From assembly GCF_005233515.1 (NCBI RefSeq), contig NZ_QFZZ01000008.1:248001-312000 (forward strand): a stretch of DNA of 64,000 nucleotides, read 5' to 3'. A model generated the notes under the pieces. That model ran no database searches. It was not told the origin of the DNA and saw only the letters and a list, made by a program, of their open reading frames with translations. Source of the DNA: Pseudomonas sp. CFBP13508. Its GTDB lineage: Bacteria > Pseudomonadota > Gammaproteobacteria > Pseudomonadales > Pseudomonadaceae. The position numbers and the translations under genes are program-made. This document shows, piece after piece, positions 3,399 to 28,676 of this stretch (position 1 is the first letter of the stretch; each line of letters starts with the position of its first letter).

Positions 3399-3405
3399 CG
3401 CCGCC

Positions 3406-3481
3406 AAAAGATCGCAGCCTTCGGCAGCTCCTACAGTGCAACGCATTCCAAAGTAGGAGCTGCCGAAGGCTGCGATCTTTT
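3406..3481. repeat. REPIN (GTAGGAGCTGCC family), 29-bp perfect arms
   Basis: Two copies of the motif GTAGGAGCTGCCGAAGGCTG plus CGATCTTTT face each other as perfect 29-bp inverted arms (3406-3434 and 3453-3481) around an 18-bp spacer. It sits between the methyltransferase and cnoX genes. As RNA it would form a stable hairpin ending in Ts on either strand, so it could also work as a terminator or mRNA 3'-end protector. Confidence 0.93.
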
Positions 3482-3527
3482 GCGTCACCCCTTATAGTGC
3501 GGTCATTGAAGCTTAGAGAGATCCCCC

Positions 3528-4400: not shown

Positions 4401-4404
4401 GAGC

Positions 4405-4508
4405 AAAAGATCGCAGCGTGCCGCAGCTCCTACATCGGATCGTGCTCATCGCGGCTTTTTGCGGATGAACACTGATTCTGTAGGAGCTGCCGAAGGCTGC
4501 GATCTTTT
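4405..4508. repeat. REPIN (GTAGGAGCTGCC family), imperfect pair
   Basis: Inverted copies of the GTAGGAGCTGCCGAAGGCTG motif flank a loop of about 46 bp. The left arm (from 4405) is slightly diverged, reading GCAGCGTGCCGCAGCTCCTA, while the right arm (about 4480-4508) matches the unit at 3453-3481. It lies 5 bp past the cnoX stop and just before the convergent end of the next gene, so it may help terminate both. Confidence 0.9.
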
Positions 4509-4513
4509 AAGGC

Positions 4514-5001: not shown

Positions 5002-5568
5002 ATGAAACGAAGTTACTACGCCCTATTGATGACCCCACTCTTGCTCATCGTGGCATGGCGCATCTGGTTGCCTGCCGATCTTTCGGCTTGTCCCGCTGAC
5101 GGGGAAACTGCAGGTCCACTGACCCTTGTTATTCGTGATTACTTTGAGCGCAATAGCCGGACCGACTGGCGAGACATGGATGATCGTTTCGACATACTTT
5201 CAACCCCCGAAGGCCAGAGCATAGCGAGTCAACCGAATTCACACACTTGCGAAGCATTGCGGGTACTGCAGAGTCCGGCGTTCAGTCAGAGTGAAAAAAT
5301 CTTCACCATGGCACTTATGTTCAGACTGCCAATCGACCAGTACATGGCCCTGATGGATCGCAGTCATCAACTCTACACGCAGGGCAAAATGGATAAGGAG
5401 GTGCTGACTCTGGTGGTATTTCCGCGCGGAACAGCCATCAACTACTGGTGGCTTCCGGCTTGGCGACAGCGTTTCAGTCGCGATGCCCCGAGCGTGCTCG
5501 ACGCAAATCTGATCAACGATGTTCTTTCGGGACACTATTGGTTCGACTATCCCGGCGCAGGCTTCTGA
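5002..5568 (+). CDS. Hypothetical protein with N-terminal membrane anchor (188 aa)
   Basis: An unrecognised 188-residue protein. Residues about 6-24 (YALLMTPLLLIVAWRIWLP) form one hydrophobic segment, so the remaining 160 or so residues are probably periplasmic. There are two Cys residues (one in LSACPAD, one in HTCEALRVL) that could form a disulfide. The start at 5002 puts the hydrophobic segment at the N-terminus; no strong ribosome binding site is visible. Base composition is visibly less GC-biased than its neighbours, which may indicate an accessory origin. Confidence 0.6.
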   Translation: MKRSYYALLMTPLLLIVAWRIWLPADLSACPADGETAGPLTLVIRDYFERNSRTDWRDMDDRFDILSTPEGQSIASQPNSHTCEALRVLQSPAFSQSEKIFTMALMFRLPIDQYMALMDRSHQLYTQGKMDKEVLTLVVFPRGTAINYWWLPAWRQRFSRDAPSVLDANLINDVLSGHYWFDYPGAGF

Positions 5569-5594
5569 TTCTGCAAGCATGACATCCAATCCCA

Positions 5595-5625
5595 GCACCG
5601 CCCGCGAACTCATCCCGGGCGGTGC
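5595..5625 (+). terminator. Possible terminator hairpin after the 188-aa gene
   Basis: GCACCGCCCG (5595-5604) pairs perfectly with CGGGCGGTGC (5616-5625) around an 11-base loop, 27 bp after the stop of the preceding gene. There is no real T-run after it, so this is a weak terminator candidate; the hairpin could instead be an RNA-stabilising structure. Confidence 0.45.
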
Positions 5626-5677
5626 TTAGCCATGTCTTGCGCAATCTCAAGCGCACGGGCACACTCTGCGCACTTTC

Positions 5678-5695
5678 GTTATAAGATTACATAAC
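5678..5695 (+). promoter_or_regulatory. Candidate Zur-type operator upstream of the zinc-linked cluster
   Basis: GTTAT and ATAAC lie as an inverted repeat separated by 8 bases, 28 bp before the ATG of the His-rich protein gene. Zur boxes contain GTTAT/ATAAC half sites, usually with closer spacing, so this is a partial match. The context (DUF2796 gene cluster, Zur-controlled in P. aeruginosa) supports it. An embedded TATAAG could be the -10 element. Confidence 0.4.
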
Positions 5696-5723
5696 AAACT
5701 TTTCATTTTTCTCGGAGTCCGTC

Positions 5724-6317
5724 ATGCGTCGTCTGTTGCTCGCTTTGCCGTTTGCCCTGTTGCCGCTGGCCGCTGCCCATGCGGTTGATGAGCACGATCA
5801 TGATCATGAGCACGGCAGCCTCGGCGCTCACGAACATGGCGTGGGTCGGCTGAACGCCGCGCTCGATGGTCAGACCCTGGAGCTGGAGCTGGAAAGCCCG
5901 GCGATGAATCTGGTCGGTTTTGAACACGCCGCCACGTCCGATGCCGACAAGGCCAAAGTCGCTGCCGCTCGGGCGCAACTGGAAAAACCATTGGCTCTGT
6001 TCAGCCTGCCCGCTGCGGCCGGCTGCAAGGTGGTCAGTCAGGAACTGGAAAGCCCGCTGTTCGGCGACAAACCGGACGCCGACGATCACGACGAAGATGA
6101 AGCGGACAAGGACGGTCACGAGCATCACCACGACCACAGCGAAATCCATGCGCATTACCAGTTCAACTGCGCCACACCGGGCGCGCTGAGCACGCTGAAC
6201 CTGGCGAACATCTTCAAGACCTTCCCGGCGACGCAGAAGATTCAGGTACAACTGATCAGCGCGACCGGCCAGCAAGGTACCGAAGTGACGGCAAAATCGG
6301 CTGCGCTGAAATTCTGA
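5724..6317 (+). CDS. ZrgA-like DUF2796 zinc-binding periplasmic protein
   Basis: A 197-residue secreted protein with a Sec signal (MRRLLLALPFALLPLAAAHA) and two His/Asp-rich stretches: one directly after the signal (DEHDHDHEHG) and one near residues 118-140 (acidic, then HEHHHDHSEIHAH). This is the pattern of DUF2796/ZrgA proteins linked to zinc uptake. Such proteins probably bind zinc in the periplasm. The gene order DUF2796, ABC ATPase, permease, DUF3299 is the same as the zinc-regulated PA4063-PA4066 cluster of P. aeruginosa, from memory. A ribosome binding site CGGAG precedes the ATG. A candidate Zur operator lies upstream and a long palindrome separates it from the ABC genes. Confidence 0.88.
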   Translation: MRRLLLALPFALLPLAAAHAVDEHDHDHEHGSLGAHEHGVGRLNAALDGQTLELELESPAMNLVGFEHAATSDADKAKVAAARAQLEKPLALFSLPAAAGCKVVSQELESPLFGDKPDADDHDEDEADKDGHEHHHDHSEIHAHYQFNCATPGALSTLNLANIFKTFPATQKIQVQLISATGQQGTEVTAKSAALKF

Positions 6318-6332
6318 AGCGAATGAAGATCC

Positions 6333-6432
6333 CCTGTAGGAGCTGACGAGTGCAACGAGGCTGCGATCTTTTGATCCTGGTTTTTTACAACCAAAAGATC
6401 GCAGCCTCGTTGCACTCGTCAGCTCCTACAGG
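6333..6432. repeat. REPIN variant, 41-bp perfect inverted arms
   Basis: Arms at 6333-6373 and 6392-6432 are perfect inverted repeats around an 18-bp loop. The ends carry CCTGTAGGAGCTGACGAGTG, the inner parts CTGCGATCTTTTG. It is a variant of the family at 3406-3481 with the middle portion exchanged (TGACGAGTGCAACGAGG instead of TGCCGAAGG). It lies inside the zinc-linked cluster, 16 bp after the ZrgA-like gene and 30 bp before the ABC ATPase start, so it could attenuate downstream transcription. Confidence 0.93.
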
Positions 6433-6461
6433 CGTCCGTGTCCAACCATGAAATCGGTGCC

Positions 6462-7172
6462 ATGACCCAAGCACTCATCGAACTTTCCGACCTTGGCTTC
6501 AACTGGCCCGGTCACCCGACGCTGCTGGACATCCCGGCGTTTCGTCTGGAAGCCGGCGAAACCCTGTTTCTCAAAGGCCCCAGCGGCAGCGGCAAGACCA
6601 CCCTGCTCGGCCTGCTCGGCGGAGTGCAGAAGCCCGGTCGCGGCAGCATTCGCCTGCTCGGCCAGGAGCTGACCGAACTGTCTGCCGGCCAGCGCGATAC
6701 GTTTCGTGTCGATCACACTGGCTACATTTTCCAGCAATTCAACCTGCTGCCGTTTCTCTCGGTGCGCGAGAACGTTGAGTTGCCGTGTCACTTCTCGAAA
6801 CTGCGTGCGCAACGGGCGAAACAGCGCCACGGCAGCGTCGATCAGGCCGCCGCCACCCTGCTCGCGCACTTGGGTCTGAAGGACGAAAGCCTGCTCAGTC
6901 GCCGCGCCGACTCCTTGTCCATCGGCCAGCAACAACGGGTCGCTGCCGCCCGCGCGTTGATCGGTCAACCGGAACTGGTGATCGCCGACGAACCGACCTC
7001 GGCGCTGGATTACGACGCCCGCGAGAATTTCATTCGCCTGCTGTTTGCCGAGTGCCGCGAGGCCGGATCGAGTCTGTTGTTCGTCAGCCACGACCAGAGC
7101 CTGGCGCCGCTGTTCGACCGTCATCTGTCCCTGGCCGATCTCAATCGCGCCGCTACGTCCGCCGAGGTCTGA
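6462..7172 (+). CDS. ABC transporter ATP-binding protein (LolD/MacB type, zinc-linked)
   Basis: A 236-residue ABC ATPase with Walker A GPSGSGKTT (residues 39-47), signature LSIGQQQRVA, Walker B LVIADEPTSALD and the switch His in LLFVSHDQS. It is of the LolD/MacB class, which partners with FtsX-fold permeases. The start at 6462 (MTQALIELSDLGFNW) is preferred over a GTG at 6438 that would lie within 10 bp of the palindrome. It probably works with the permease encoded one base after its stop. Whether the complex moves a substrate or transmits force across the periplasm is not evident. Confidence 0.93.
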   Translation: MTQALIELSDLGFNWPGHPTLLDIPAFRLEAGETLFLKGPSGSGKTTLLGLLGGVQKPGRGSIRLLGQELTELSAGQRDTFRVDHTGYIFQQFNLLPFLSVRENVELPCHFSKLRAQRAKQRHGSVDQAAATLLAHLGLKDESLLSRRADSLSIGQQQRVAAARALIGQPELVIADEPTSALDYDARENFIRLLFAECREAGSSLLFVSHDQSLAPLFDRHLSLADLNRAATSAEV

Positions 7173-7173
7173 G

Positions 7174-8439
7174 ATGTATCTGTTTCGTCTGGCCATGGCC
7201 AGCCTGGCCAACCGCCGTTTCACCGCATTGCTCACCGCCTTCGCCATTGCCCTGTCGGTGTGCCTGCTGCTCGCCGTCGAGCGCGTGCGCACCGAAGCCA
7301 AGGCCAGTTTCGCCAGCACCATCAGCGGCACTGACCTGATCGTCGGTGCTCGTTCGGGGTCGGTAAACCTGCTGCTGTATTCGGTGTTCCGCATCGGCAA
7401 CGCTACCAACAATATTCGCTGGGACAGCTTCGAACACTTCGCCAACAATCCGAAAGTGAAGTGGGCAATCCCCATGTCCCTCGGCGATTCCCATCGCGGC
7501 TATCGCGTGATGGGCACCACCGAAGCCTATTTCGAGCACTATCAATACGGGCGCCAGCAACACCTGGCGCTGGCCGACGGTCGCGCGTTTGCCACCGATC
7601 CTTTCGAAGTGGTGCTCGGCGCCGAAGTCGCCGAAGCGCTGCACTACAAGCTCGGCGACAAACTGGTGCTGGCCCACGGTGTGGCGGCGATCAGCCTGGT
7701 CAAGCACGACGACAAACCCTTCACCGTGGTCGGCATCCTCCAGCGCACCGGCACCCCGGTGGACCGCACGTTGCACATCAGCCTCGGCGGCATGGAGGCG
7801 ATTCACATCGACTGGCACAACGGTGTGCCGGCGCGCGGCAACGGGCGGATCAGCGCTGATCAGGCGCGCAACATGGACCTGACCCCGCAAGCGATCACCG
7901 CGTTCATGCTCGGCCTCAACAGCAAGATTTCCACCTTCGCCTTGCAGCGCGAGATCAACGAATACCGTGGCGAACCGATGCTGGCGATCCTGCCGGGCGT
8001 GGCCTTGCAGGAATTGTGGAGCCTGATGAGTACGGCCGAGAAAGCCTTGTTCGTGGTCTCGCTGTTCGTCGTGCTGACCGGGCTGATCGGCATGCTCACG
8101 GCGATTCTCACCAGCCTCAACGAACGTCGCCGCGAGATGGCGATTCTGCGTTCGGTGGGGGCGCGGCCGTGGCACATCGCAAGCCTGCTGGTGCTGGAAG
8201 CCTTTGCGTTGGCGCTGGCCGGAGTCATCGCCGGACTGGCATTGCTGTACATCGGCATCGCCGCTGCGCAGGGTTACGTGCAGGCCAATTACGGTTTGTA
8301 CCTGCCGCTGGCATGGCCGAGCGAGTATGAATGGACGCTGCTCGGTGGCATTCTGGCGGCCGCGCTGCTGATGGGCAGCGTGCCGGCCTGGCGCGCGTAT
8401 CGCCAATCATTGGCCGATGGCCTGTCGATCCGTTTATGA
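7174..8439 (+). CDS. ABC transporter permease, FtsX/MacB family (zinc-linked)
   Basis: A 421-residue FtsX-type permease. One membrane segment lies near the N-terminus (FTALLTAFAIALSVCLLLAV), then a large periplasmic domain of about 230 residues, then three C-terminal segments (ALFVVSLFVVLTGLIGMLTA, LLVLEAFALALAGVIAGLAL and LLGGILAAALLMGSV). The motif ERRREMAILRSVGARPWHI is typical of MacB/LolC proteins. The start at 7174 is one base after the ATPase stop, and the longer frame reading back to 7045 overlaps the ATPase and is rejected. The product is an inner-membrane partner of the preceding ATPase. Confidence 0.92.
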   Translation: MYLFRLAMASLANRRFTALLTAFAIALSVCLLLAVERVRTEAKASFASTISGTDLIVGARSGSVNLLLYSVFRIGNATNNIRWDSFEHFANNPKVKWAIPMSLGDSHRGYRVMGTTEAYFEHYQYGRQQHLALADGRAFATDPFEVVLGAEVAEALHYKLGDKLVLAHGVAAISLVKHDDKPFTVVGILQRTGTPVDRTLHISLGGMEAIHIDWHNGVPARGNGRISADQARNMDLTPQAITAFMLGLNSKISTFALQREINEYRGEPMLAILPGVALQELWSLMSTAEKALFVVSLFVVLTGLIGMLTAILTSLNERRREMAILRSVGARPWHIASLLVLEAFALALAGVIAGLALLYIGIAAAQGYVQANYGLYLPLAWPSEYEWTLLGGILAAALLMGSVPAWRAYRQSLADGLSIRL

Positions 8440-8450
8440 GGATGTTCACC

Positions 8451-8969
8451 ATGCCCCGCGCCCTGCTTGCGCTGCTGATGCTGGTCGCCCTGCCCGTGTG
8501 GGCGGCGGCGCCGAAAGACCTGACCTGGTCGGAAATGATCCCGCCGGACGCCGCGCCGGAAGTGCCGAACATGACCCCGCTGCACGACCTGTCGAAGATG
8601 GGCGACGCACTTTCCGCCGAGTCCGCACCAGCGGCCAAGCAGGACATGCCCAATGCACCGGTCGTGAAGAGCCTCGACGGACAGAACATTCGCTTGCCGG
8701 GCTATATCGTGCCGCTGGAAGTCAGCGAAGAGGGGCGCACCACCGACTTTTTGCTGGTGCCGTACTTCGGCGCCTGCATCCACGTACCGCCACCGCCGTC
8801 GAACCAGATCGTCCATGTGAAAAGCGAACTGGGCGTGAAGCTCGATGAGCTGTATCAGCCGTATTGGGTCGAAGGGCCGTTGCAGGTGAAAACCTCGAGC
8901 AGTGAACTGGCCGATGCCGGGTATCAGATGGAGGCGGAGAAGATTTATGCGTATGAGCTGCCGGAGTAA
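8451..8969 (+). CDS. DUF3299 periplasmic protein (zinc-linked cluster)
   Basis: A 172-residue secreted protein with signal MPRALLALLMLVALPVWAAA and a DUF3299 domain marked by LPGYIVPLEV and the motif PYFGACIHVPPPPSNQIVHV, whose Cys and two His residues could bind a metal. Its partner genes are the FtsX-type permease and ATPase upstream, as in P. aeruginosa PA4066. The start at 8451 has GAGGAT 7 bases upstream. An ATG at 8436 overlapping the permease stop, or at 8442, is also possible and would add five or three residues before the signal. The precise role is unknown. Confidence 0.87.
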   Translation: MPRALLALLMLVALPVWAAAPKDLTWSEMIPPDAAPEVPNMTPLHDLSKMGDALSAESAPAAKQDMPNAPVVKSLDGQNIRLPGYIVPLEVSEEGRTTDFLLVPYFGACIHVPPPPSNQIVHVKSELGVKLDELYQPYWVEGPLQVKTSSSELADAGYQMEAEKIYAYELPE

Positions 8970-9003
8970 TTCCCGGTAGTTTTGTATTGGCTGGTCTATC
9001 GTC

Positions 9004-9067
9004 TTCGCGAGCAGGCTCGCTCCCACAGGTGATCACATTCCAAGGTGGGAGCGAGCCTGCTCGCGAA
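9004..9067. repeat. REPIN (GTGGGAGCGAGCC family)
   Basis: Inverted 23-bp arms with the core GTGGGAGCGAGCCTGCTCGC at 9004-9026 and 9045-9067, separated by 18 bp, between the DUF3299 gene and oprG. Each arm is itself a short palindrome, which is the usual REP structure. Confidence 0.95.
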
Positions 9068-9112
9068 TAGGCCCTCAAGGGTTCCACAAAACCCCGCCCC
9101 TTCACTGTTTCA

Positions 9113-9126
9113 TTGAGCTGAGTCAA
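9113..9126 (+). promoter_or_regulatory. Candidate Anr (FNR-type) box upstream of oprG
   Basis: TTGAG-CTGA-GTCAA fits the FNR/Anr pattern TTGA-N6-TCAA, with G instead of T/A at the inner positions. Its centre is about 70 bp before the oprG ATG. A transcription start near 9161 would place it at the class II position (-41.5) with TACCCT (9149-9154) as -10. In P. aeruginosa, oprG is known to rise under low oxygen through Anr, which supports the call. Confidence 0.55.
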
Positions 9127-9154
9127 AACACCGTATCAGACGGCTTCGTACCCT

Positions 9155-9177
9155 AGGACATCGAATTTTTATGTCCT
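9155..9177 (+). promoter_or_regulatory. 5'-leader hairpin of oprG
   Basis: AGGACAT (9155-9161) is the exact inverse complement of ATGTCCT (9171-9177), with a 9-base AT-rich loop, ending only 12 bases before the oprG start and next to the GGAG ribosome binding site. It could affect translation start or mRNA stability. No known riboswitch or sRNA target is recognised. Confidence 0.4.
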
Positions 9178-9189
9178 TTCGGAGCCCCC

Positions 9190-9888
9190 ATGAACAAGTC
9201 CTTGCTCAGCGCCCCGCTGTTTGCCCTCGCGCTCGCAGCCCCGCTCGCCCACGCCCACGAAGCCGGTGACATTCTCGTGCGCGCTGGCGCGATCACCGTC
9301 AACCCGAAGGCCGACAGTTCCAGCGTCAAGGTCGATCAGGGTCCGCTGAGCGGCACTGATCTGGGCGGCAAGGCGACCATGAGCAGCGACACCCAACTGG
9401 GTCTGAACTTCGCCTACATGCTCACCAACAACATCGGTATCGAGCTGCTTGCGGCGACGCCGTTCGAGCATGACGTCAAGCTCAAGGGCACCGCCCTGCC
9501 CGCCGCCAACGGCAAGCTCGGCACGCTGAAGCACCTGCCGCCGACCCTCAGCGTCGTCTACTACCCGCTGGATTCGAAATCGGCCTTCCAGCCGTATGTG
9601 GGTGGTGGCATCAACTACACCTGGATCTACGACGAACACGTCGGCAGCGAAGCCAGCGCCAACGGCTTCAGCAACTTCAAGGCGAAAAACTCCTGGGGCC
9701 TGGCCTGGCAGGTCGGCGCCGACTACATGATCACCGACAACATCATGCTCAACGCCCAGGTGCGCTACATCGATATCGACACCCGCGCGACCGTGGAGAA
9801 CAACGCCGTCGCACCCGGCACCCGCGCGCGGGTAAATGTGGACGTCGATCCGTTCATCTACATGGTCGGTCTGGGCTATAAGTTCTAA
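9190..9888 (+). CDS. oprG: Outer-membrane protein OprG (OmpW family)
   Basis: A 232-residue OmpW/AlkL-type eight-stranded beta-barrel for small hydrophobic molecules. It has a Sec signal (MNKSLLSAPLFALALAAPLA...HA), the OmpW N-terminal motif GDILVRAGAITVNP, LGLNFAYMLTNNIGIELLAATPF-like barrel strands, and ends in Lys-Phe, the usual outer-membrane C-terminal aromatic signal. It sits next to the zinc-linked cluster, as PA4067 does in P. aeruginosa. An Anr-like box and a leader hairpin lie upstream, and a strong terminator lies about 135 bp after the stop. Confidence 0.93.
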   Translation: MNKSLLSAPLFALALAAPLAHAHEAGDILVRAGAITVNPKADSSSVKVDQGPLSGTDLGGKATMSSDTQLGLNFAYMLTNNIGIELLAATPFEHDVKLKGTALPAANGKLGTLKHLPPTLSVVYYPLDSKSAFQPYVGGGINYTWIYDEHVGSEASANGFSNFKAKNSWGLAWQVGADYMITDNIMLNAQVRYIDIDTRATVENNAVAPGTRARVNVDVDPFIYMVGLGYKF

Positions 9889-10022
9889 GTCGATTTTTTA
9901 CTGAACGTTCACGTGGTGGTGAATGAGGCTTGGTGGCGGGCAGGCACAGACCTGACGACGACCGTACGCAGTCGATCGGGGGATAACATTCCCTCGCCAC
10001 AGGGATAGCGATATTCCGGCCG

Positions 10023-12214: not shown

Positions 12215-12280
12215 CTTCGCGAGCAGGCTCGCTCCCACAGGGGACCGGGTTCCAAGGTGGGAGCGAGCCTGCTCGCGAAG
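12215..12280. repeat. REPIN (GTGGGAGCGAGCC family)
   Basis: Perfect 24-bp inverted arms (12215-12238 and 12257-12280) with the GTGGGAGCGAGCCTGCTCGC core, separated by 18 bp. It lies in the divergent region between the RmlD-like gene and lhr, only 52 bp before the lhr start. Confidence 0.95.
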
Positions 12281-16637: not shown

Positions 16638-16703
16638 TTCGCGAGCAGGCTCGCTCCCACAGTCCAATCCCGTTTCCCCTGTGGGAGCGAGCCTGCTCGC
16701 GAA
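16638..16703. repeat. REPIN (GTGGGAGCGAGCC family)
   Basis: Inverted 23-bp arms at 16638-16660 and 16681-16703 between the convergent ends of lhr and the MscS-family gene. It may help end both transcripts, since no other terminator hairpin is visible there. Confidence 0.95.
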
Positions 16704-23172: not shown

Positions 23173-23235
23173 GGCCCCTTCGCGAGCAGGCTCGCTCCCA
23201 CAAACTGTGGGAGCGAGCCTGCTCGCGAAGGGGCC
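23173..23235. repeat. REPIN (GTGGGAGCGAGCC family), near-perfect 63-bp palindrome
   Basis: Arms at 23173-23202 and 23206-23235 pair perfectly over 30 bp with only a 3-base loop, because the two REP units almost touch. It lies between the convergent YbhN-like and hydrolase genes, where it could terminate both transcripts. Confidence 0.95.
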
Positions 23236-25299: not shown

Positions 25300-25384
25300 G
25301 TGGGAGCGAGCCTGCTCGCGAAAGCGTAGTGTCAGCCGTCTACAATTCTGTAGATCCAGCGCCTTCGAGCAGGCTCGCTCCCAC
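25300..25384. repeat. REPIN (GTGGGAGCGAGCC family), opposite arm order, one arm with a 2-bp deletion
   Basis: The left arm (25300-25322) has the full GTGGGAGCGAGCCTGCTCGC core. The right arm (25364-25384) lacks two bases (TTCGAGCAGG instead of TTCGCGAGCAGG). Between them is a small hairpin, CTACA-ATTC-TGTAG. It occupies most of the 277-bp gap 25109-25385. The remaining part (25109-25299) shows no clear signal apart from the leader of the DUF3182 gene. Confidence 0.9.
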
Positions 25385-28588: not shown

Positions 28589-28676
28589 GTGGGAGCGAGC
28601 CTGCTCGCGAAAGCGTCGTGACAGTCAAATAATCGAGTGACTGACACAACCCATTCGCGAGCAGGCTCGCTCCCAC
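28589..28676. repeat. REPIN (GTGGGAGCGAGCC family) inside the PspA operon
   Basis: Outward-ordered 23-bp arms (28589-28611 and 28654-28676) flank 42 bp that contain the smaller hairpin GTGACAGTCA / TGACTGACAC-like sequence. It lies in the 210-bp gap between pspA-like and DUF2491 genes, the largest gap in the operon, and could protect the upstream mRNA or reduce downstream transcription. Confidence 0.93.

Follow-up and report, generated by a model that had tools for sequence, protein, structure and literature searches.

A Zur-linked Zrg operon in Pseudomonas sp. CFBP13508 and its possible role in periplasmic zinc hand-on

The four-gene operon at positions 5724-8969 of the window, the 64,000-nucleotide stretch of Pseudomonas sp. 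CFBP13508 DNA analysed here, is the already known Zrg system, represented by PA4063-4066 in P. aeruginosa and by ZrgA, C, B and E in Vibrio. Its products are ZrgA, the ATPase and FtsX/MacB-type permease of an ABC system, and a DUF3299 protein; repression by Zur is very probable. The conserved residues and the neighbouring genes point to zinc being passed on within the periplasm, and not to export of a metal chelator. The initial annotation had called PA4063-4066 mechanistically unclear, a statement which is partly outdated: cobalt-pyochelin export was proposed in 2024 (PMC11481552) and zinc uptake in Vibrio (PMC9820375, PMC9817125).

Composition of the operon

The locus contains the following features.

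5678..5691, forward strand: predicted Zur operator GTTATAAGATTACA, agreeing at every position with the Zur consensus published for Pseudomonas
5724..6317, forward strand: zrgA (DUF2796), PA4063 orthologue; PF10986 192 bits, His-rich, signal-like start
6333..6432, no strand: REPIN-like element between zrgA and the ATPase gene; 41-base arms, 100% complementary, 18-nt loop
6462..7172, forward strand: zrgC-like ABC ATPase; ABC_tran 109 bits, ORF listed from GTG 6438
7174..8439, forward strand: zrgB-like type VII permease; FtsX 68 bits, MacB_PCD 54 bits, invariant periplasmic D105, H168, H178, D197 and H211
8451..8969, forward strand: zrgE-like DUF3299 protein with the motif GACIHVPPPPSNQ, PA4066 orthologue; PF11736 168 bits
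9004..9067, no strand: second REPIN-like inverted repeat, 3′ of the DUF3299 gene and of a different sequence class

ZrgA exceeds the PF10986 cut-off of 27.4 bits by far but falls under the stricter cut-off of the NCBIfam ZrgA equivalog (140 vs 185). At E 0.001, PF10986 is its only family, PF01297 (ZnuA) giving no match. In the PDB, ZrgA matches 7ahw (PA4063; E 1e-69) and the zinc-binding protein 8ezw (E 4e-17, 66 bits), while the DUF3299 protein matches 4hsp (E 6e-58). As read from the sequence, the likely start of the ATPase is ATG 6462 and that of the DUF3299 protein ATG 8451, the ORF listed from 8331 being an upstream extension; DUF3299 residue numbers count from codon 8439. The ATPase is LolD/DevA-like, yet it lies under every NCBIfam cut-off shown.

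The features that mark a Zrg system were found together at the level of sequence, namely a PF10986 protein, an adjacent ATPase and FtsX/MacB-type permease, a clustered DUF3299 gene and an upstream Zur-type box. The earlier description of a DUF2796 protein, a LolD/MacB-type ATPase, an FtsX-fold permease and a DUF3299 protein was confirmed by profile scores for all four, and the proposed homology of the ZrgA-like and DUF3299 partners to PA4063-4066 was upheld by the matches to PF10986, PF11736 and structures 7ahw and 4hsp. Their description as one unit needs qualification: the four genes are present in the named families, but the unit is interrupted by the hairpin at 6333-6432. The arm core of this element occurs 6 times in the window against 0.01 expected, and the arm of the 9004-9067 repeat has 12 window matches against 0 expected. 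In relatives, where junction lengths are estimates from the position of the Walker A motif, the zrgA-ATPase junction carries other repeats or none.

In PA4063-PA4066, a Zur box likewise precedes genes for these four protein types. The ZrgABCDE system of V. cholerae and V. parahaemolyticus shares ZrgA, the ATPase, the permease, DUF3299 (ZrgE) and Zur control, but the ORFs of the operon studied here include no fifth gene (zrgD), and the similarity of ZrgA is moderate (the 66 bits to 8ezw). ZnuABC (cluster A-I) is comparable in its Zur-type box and its exported protein with a His-rich stretch, whereas ZrgA has no PF01297 match and the Zrg permease is of the FtsX/MacB type.

The Zur-type box upstream of zrgA

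The putative operator ends at 5691, leaving 32 nt before the zrgA start. The box spans 13-14 bases, GTTATAAGATTAC(A), in a 5-3-5 arrangement, in complete agreement with the published consensus GWWAYWNNNTWHCR. The box motif has 4 matches in the window against 1.5 expected, and GTTATNNNATNAC at one mismatch has 3 against 4.0. On these counts the motif alone is no proof of a Zur operator, and the assignment is made because of the position and conservation of the box. In a scan that took locus orientation into account, a site with at most one mismatch from GTTATNNNATAAC was found near zrgA at 33/38 genus loci, 25/51 named loci and 8/27 phylum loci, compared with 0.16%, 0.94% and 2.4% of the respective control windows. 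Counting against the box, 23/51 named loci and 14/27 phylum loci have at least three mismatches to it in the scanned span. An expression table for V. parahaemolyticus places zrgD next to zrgA (PMC9817125), hence the Zur box may sit further out there. Boxes of the same form are found elsewhere in the genome at znuA-zur, a cobW gene and folE2.

The initial annotation had placed a GTTAT/ATAAC inverted repeat ahead of the unit. This repeat, GTTAT-N8-ATAAC at 5678-5695, is real and perfect and overlaps the 5-3-5 box, its ATAAC half occupying 5691-5695, but the operator geometry that it implied, 5-8-5, was not retained. The 5-8-5 repeat is kept in only 22/38 genus loci, and other loci carry GTTATAACATAAC or GTTATAACGTAAC with 5-3-5 spacing and without the distal ATAAC. 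With one mismatch allowed, it has 2 window matches against 0.39 expected, a number reached in 5/100 shuffles. The proposed linkage to zinc and Zur was itself borne out at the sequence level by the box, its conservation near zrgA and the same-form boxes elsewhere in the genome.

Conserved residues in the permease and the DUF3299 protein

By profile and by model, the permease belongs to the type VII ABC superfamily, having an FtsX C-terminal domain and a matching fold. Its AlphaFold2 model (pLDDT 88) contains long helices at residues 15-49, 274-317, 332-373 and 384-416 and matches the folds of MacB, LolE, HrtB and others. Foldseek puts MacB narrowly ahead (5gko 2.4e-15 vs 2.6e-15 for LolE), and by VIA-align MacB (Z 18.3) is more distant than LolE (21.5) and a permease from S. 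pneumoniae (24.4). A MacB-like periplasmic domain is present (MacB_PCD 54 bits; 5gko E 2.4e-15), with LolE about equally close, and the ATPase and permease, fused in MacB, are two separate genes in the window. In the window, a scan of four flanking genes gave no MacA-type adaptor; in relatives, none was found among the families with at least 2 of 119 flanking ORFs (25 of 141 families listed), and an adaptor may be encoded elsewhere.

The permease residues D105, H168, H178, D197 and H211 are invariant in 96/96 related permeases, collected by similarity or adjacency and distinct in 95 cases, and H107 is found in 89/96. MacB, LolCDE, FtsEX and YbbAP of the type VII superfamily are alike in the FtsX domain and the MacB-like periplasmic domain, but the invariant His residues are missing from four other MacB_PCD permeases of the same genome, and Zrg has zinc-linked partners. 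These controls (one MacB-like, two LolC/E and one large unnamed permease) have no His at any of the four His positions, D105 in 0/4 and D197 in 3/4, although they are remote, so that their alignment to the Zrg permease is uncertain. A metal cluster formed by these His and Asp residues is putative and is suggested by their invariance.

In the DUF3299 protein, C113 and H115 (C-x-H) are invariant in all 45 rows of the alignment. A larger table of 73 rows has the Cys in 73 and the His in 72, with only 61 rows distinct, which makes the 45-row alignment the cleaner basis. The possible Cys/His site noted earlier is therefore conserved and may be a metal site, while PA4066 is described as having no evident zinc-binding ability (PMC11481552). 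The DUF3299 model (pLDDT 87.5) gives OB-fold matches. A function could not be taken from the fold: besides 4hsp, the matches listed are generic OB folds (Z up to 8.6) of a kind flagged as common by the tool itself, and a family outside those listed may also be related. A weak match to CcmE from the CcmABCDE complex (8ce8_E, E 3.3e-3) is among them. In the phylum set, DUF3299 lies within 6 kb of ZrgA in 65/69 places, second fragments of split ZrgA matches being excluded. Stand-alone DUF3299 genes occur at 13/80 named loci, and one is found in this genome (L096), so the C-x-H motif extends beyond the zinc system.

Distribution and gene neighbours

ZrgA is present in 199/199 genus genomes and 66/398 phylum genomes. 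ZIP exceeds its cut-off in 161/199 genus genomes, this one included, and is therefore not obligatory for the system. Zinc-importer genes of the ZIP family lie beside the system at 7/97 permease loci, counted without a random control: L111, L114, L122, L159, L174 and L214 by Pfam and L119 by HMM only. At L214, the ZIP start overlaps the DUF3299 stop, and at L111 the ZIP stop meets zrgA. This linkage could be explained by shared Zur control alone.

Among the families listed, the flanking ORFs of relatives include cobW (4), FUR (4), amidohydrolase/dihydroorotase (4), DUF1826 (3), ZIP (3), MerC (3) and FolE2 (2). The 119 ORFs scanned, again without a random control, were part of 171 found at 42 loci picked from 97, and the first 25 of 141 families were listed. 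One TonB-dependent receptor was identified near a zrg locus (L121), among flanking families mostly limited to those with at least 2 ORFs.

Possible roles in zinc handling

The reading that we favour, although only tentatively, is an ATP-driven hand-off of zinc in the periplasm which helps the cell when zinc is scarce, while ZIP, Znu or other proteins carry out the import. ZrgA would collect loosely held zinc in the periplasm. The permease and ATPase, probably with docked DUF3299, would use ATP to move periplasmic parts, with no zinc passing through the membrane, and the permease His/Asp site and the DUF3299 Cys-x-His site would share in the hand-off. The inner membrane would be crossed through a separate importer, an adjacent ZIP where one is encoded and otherwise ZnuABC or another carrier. 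More speculatively, Zrg may be an ATP-powered relay of a bare metal ion from ZrgA to the permease His/Asp site, to the DUF3299 Cys-x-His and on to ZIP or Znu importers, which would make it a branch of the MacB/Lol/FtsX superfamily that handles metals and is recognisable by its invariant periplasmic His. The initial annotation had doubted that an FtsX-fold permease conducts zinc across the membrane, and the type VII fold supports this doubt, as such ABC systems typically work in the periplasm without moving substrates through the membrane (PMC12646458). It had also offered a carrier, an outer-membrane receptor or a metallophore as the target; the genome evidence points to the carrier and away from pyochelin as a general substrate. 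Several published observations count against a hand-off: V. cholerae single knock-outs of zrgD or zrgE (DUF3299) left growth unaffected (PMC9820375), and a PA4065 mutant colonised wax-moth larvae as the wild type did (PMC13083405). In addition, deletion of PA4065 in a znuA zrmB background left zinc content unchanged and raised cobalt in a pyochelin-dependent manner (PMC11481552), a poor fit with a simple zinc-supply role.

In published work on V. cholerae and V. parahaemolyticus, ZrgA is seen as the binding protein of a true importer whose permease conducts zinc into the cytoplasm; this view appears unlikely, albeit with evidence in its favour. V. cholerae mutants lacking both znuA and zrgA grow poorly, with about 100-fold lower survival without zinc, and V. 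cholerae ZrgA has sites under 1 µM (PMC9820375); zinc uptake was also assigned in V. parahaemolyticus (PMC9817125), and the invariant permease His could equally form an entry site. However, the type VII fold, shared with MacB, LolCDE and FtsX, is typical of a class without trans-membrane substrate passage (PMC12646458), a co-encoded ZIP importer would be redundant in some genomes, and the zinc affinity of PA4063 is micromolar (PMC8561739). Loading of periplasmic or outer-membrane zinc proteins or receptors, from which the cytoplasm would gain only indirectly, is less probable still. Periplasmic partners are what type VII ABCs act on (PMC12646458), the predicted DUF3299 fold has its weak CcmE match, and the PA4065 mutant showed no difference in zinc content (PMC11481552). 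Conversely, many unrelated OB folds score as CcmE does, no recurrent client gene lies beside the system among the first 25 of 141 families listed, and the zrmA reporter response points to intracellular zinc status (PMC11481552).

Equally improbable is the MacB-type exporter proposed for PA4063-4066, which would pump cobalt-pyochelin, or pyochelin, out of zinc-starved cells. The pyochelin-dependent build-up of cobalt in the PA4065 mutant, at unchanged zinc content, and the predicted MacB-like fold were reported in its support (PMC11481552), and our own permease model also matches MacB, first in the Foldseek ranking. By contrast, the VIA-align ranking and the distribution speak against it, and no MacA-type adaptor was found among the flanking genes scanned. 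The pchG family TIGR01761 exceeds its cut-off in 11/199 genus genomes (15/199 at E<=0.001), against 199/199 for ZrgA, hence pyochelin cannot be the general substrate. A pyochelin pathway using another reductase may escape this marker, which is blind to scavenged pyochelin and can also over-call, being over cut-off in one control genome. In this genome, unlike P. aeruginosa, the TIGR01761 profile search returned no pchG-type match, so that a pyochelin role could not rest on self-made pyochelin. Across the phylum set of 398 genomes, ZrgA passes its cut-off in 66 and pchG in 2; both occur together in G319 alone, whose ZrgA match has internal stops. The pchB-type family is over cut-off in 26/199 genus genomes, this genome having sub-threshold matches only; such matches (156/199 genomes at E<=0.001) were set aside as pyochelin evidence because the same search was positive in 10/14 control genomes.

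Significance

Two published views of Zrg, as a zinc importer and as a cobalt-pyochelin exporter, are in conflict, and the distribution data limit the second. The invariant residues of the permease and the DUF3299 protein are named targets for mutants. If the periplasmic hand-off of zinc is true, the work of type VII ABC machines would extend to metal ions, and a function could be given to DUF3299.

Gene content and probable zinc-responsive control

The initial annotation recognised a ZrgA/DUF2796 protein, an ABC ATPase, an FtsX-fold permease and a DUF3299 protein, and a Pfam scan assigned all four ORFs to these families.

5678-5691: Zur-type box GTTATAAGATTACA
5724-6317, +: zrgA
6333-6432: REPIN-like perfect inverted repeat with 41-base arms, filling the zrgA-ATPase junction
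6462-7172, +: ATPase (zrgC-like)
7174-8439, +: permease (zrgB-like)
8451-8969, +: DUF3299 (zrgE-like)

The ZrgA protein is rich in His and has a signal-like start. It matches the solved structure of PA4063 of P. aeruginosa (7ahw, E 1e-69) and a second zinc-binding chain (8ezw). The DUF3299 protein matches PA4066, also of solved structure (4hsp, E 6e-58), and shares 89% identity with its counterpart in P. fluorescens PS918 (L201), which makes an origin of the window in the fluorescens group of Pseudomonas very probable. The operon is flanked by an upstream ORF without Pfam match and a downstream OmpW gene. The system was correctly spotted and is known already.

The likely operator of zrgA, with its geometry corrected, is the GTTATAAGATTACA box, in agreement with the Zur consensus GWWAYWNNNTWHCR published for Pseudomonas, as quoted in PMC10393844. 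Boxes of like form are found elsewhere in this genome: one (GTTATTATGTTAC) in the gap separating znuA from a FUR-family gene (zur), one at a cobW gene (GTTATAGTATAAC) and one ahead of folE2 (GTTATAATGTAAC). In the whole genome, GTTATNNNATNAC has 9 matches at 8 places versus 4 for the reversed-pattern control, hence the motif alone is weak and its position bears the weight. A sequence that differs from GTTATNNNATAAC at no more than one position lies near zrgA in 33 of 38 genus loci (0.16% of control windows), 25 of 51 named loci (0.94%) and 8 of 27 phylum loci (2.4%).

The zrgA promoters of P. pudica, P. parafulva and P. capeferrum (L185, L188, L210), which we take to belong to the putida group, carry a Zur-type box, GTTATAACATAAC or GTTATAACATTAC. 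These boxes contrast with a published survey in which the putida and syringae groups are reportedly without Zur control of PA4063-66 (PMC10393844). The same source already documents that PA4063-66 occurs across the genus, together with a large part of its control by Zur, and the up-regulation of PA4063-4066 upon zinc lack is likewise in print (PMC4542158). The Zrg system is almost certainly part of the response to zinc starvation.

In relatives, the neighbours of the system include cobW, FolE2, FUR-family, MerC, DUF1826 and dihydroorotase-like genes, most of these families being known from zinc-starvation regulons (cf. PMC6103462). A ZrgA gene at L123:6193-6783 adjoins FUR-family, cobW and DUF1826 genes; the ABC and DUF3299 genes were not found within the 12-kb locus around it.

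A hairpin within the operon

The reading of the four genes as one unit overlooked the hairpin between zrgA and the ATPase gene. The core of this repeat has 6 matches in the window versus 0.01 expected. Among 38 genus loci, the junction is shorter than 60 nt in 9, and 13 of the 29 longer junctions contain an inverted repeat of at least 16 pairs, with differing sequences. Published fold changes mainly decrease along the operon, both in P. aeruginosa (PA4063 45, PA4064 17, PA4065 22, PA4066 11; PMC4542158) and in V. parahaemolyticus (zrgA 206, zrgC 148, zrgB 105, zrgE 76; PMC9817125). It is a guess that the hairpin sets the stoichiometry of the operon products.

REPIN-like repeats, varying in sequence among genus genomes, occupy the zrgA-ATPase junction in L028, L029, L031, L034, L036 and L077. 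Two more pairs of the operon's repeat class occur in the window (3405-3482, 4404-4509), and another REPIN-like arm has 12 matches there (0 expected), forming six paired copies:

9004-9067, 12218-12277, 16640-16701, 23181-23227, 25300-25384, 28589-28676: REPIN-like pairs of the second class (arm matches)

Distribution and conserved residues

ZrgA is present in 199/199 genus genomes. Among 398 phylum genomes, ZrgA was over the cut-off in 66 and DUF3299 in 93; DUF3299 lies within 6 kb of ZrgA at 65 of 69 ZrgA places and somewhere in the genome in 64 of the 66 ZrgA genomes. For the best 80 named DUF3299 loci among the matches listed, 67 have the permease and 13 do not, and ZrgA was recognised in 51 of those 67. 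Hence DUF3299 accompanies the ABC transporter, and ZrgA is seldom without DUF3299. The ABC and DUF3299 genes occur without a recognised ZrgA in L129, L130 and L131, adjoining an RND (ACR_tran) gene in the last (5192-9954), and L161 has a FUR-family gene immediately upstream. A Peptidase S46 gene is close to DUF3299 in L118 and L131, and to a Zrg-kind ABC in L128.

In DUF3299, modelled as an OB fold, C113 (counted from codon 8439) is the sole Cys of the window protein and, like H115, is invariant in 45/45 aligned sequences, in the context G-A-C-[IL]-H-x-P-P-P-P-x-N-Q. Titles and listed abstracts yielded no paper about DUF3299 function. A second, stand-alone DUF3299 gene of this genome (L096:6542-7078, contig C3), flanked by aldose-epimerase and Transgly_assoc ORFs, also has the Cys-x-His motif. 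In Alteromonas and Glaciecola (L160, L165, L172, L211, near 6232-7462), a stand-alone DUF3299 follows an ORF of 176-177 aa; three of the four loci also have, close by, an ORF of 942-949 aa that matches an ATPase.

In the permease, D105, H168, H178, D197 and H211 are invariant across 96 sequences and H107 is conserved in 89; H168 and H178 may stand at the ends of a short hairpin in the model. Of the other four MacB_PCD permeases in this genome, one is MacB-like, two are of the LolC/E kind and one is large and unnamed. None of the four has a His at any of these His positions or an Asp at the D105 position; three have Asp at the D197 position.

Proposed roles: zinc transfer or cobalt-pyochelin export

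P. aeruginosa data were interpreted by their authors as cobalt-pyochelin export (PMC11481552, PMC13083405); the results from Vibrio are in favour of zinc uptake (PMC9820375, PMC9817125). The AlphaFold2 model of the permease (pLDDT 88) matches MacB, LolE, a permease of S. pneumoniae, HrtB (a haem exporter), YtrF and FtsX (Foldseek, VIA-align). Since MacB ranks first by a small margin with Foldseek and is not first with VIA-align, the fold alone does not indicate an exporter. A pchG-type gene was over the cut-off in 11/199 genus genomes and a pchB-type gene in 26/199; in this genome, no pchG-type gene was found and no pchB-type gene was over the cut-off. In the phylum set, pchG was over the cut-off in 2/398 genomes; one genome (G319) has both pchG and ZrgA over the cut-off, its ZrgA match containing stops. 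Pyochelin export may be a role of Zrg in P. aeruginosa but is hardly its general function.

ZIP zinc transporter genes stand beside the system in 7 of the 97 permease loci; in 73 of these 97, the sequence extends 3.5 kb or more to each side of the permease start. Six were confirmed by Pfam (L111, L114, L122, L159, L174, L214) and the seventh (L119) was found with an HMM built from these six. In L214 the DUF3299 stop and the ZIP start overlap, in L111 the end of the ZIP gene touches the first start codon of zrgA, and in L159 the ZIP gene lies about 1.2 kb upstream of zrgA. The literature records searched yielded no link of zrgABC to 'ZIP family'. We infer, tentatively and at somewhat less than even chances, that the system would use ATP to transfer zinc among periplasmic proteins, with import left to separate ZIP, Znu or other proteins. 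What is new here is the comparative evidence, which, with the corrected operator and the hairpin, is added to a known system and renders its mechanism testable.
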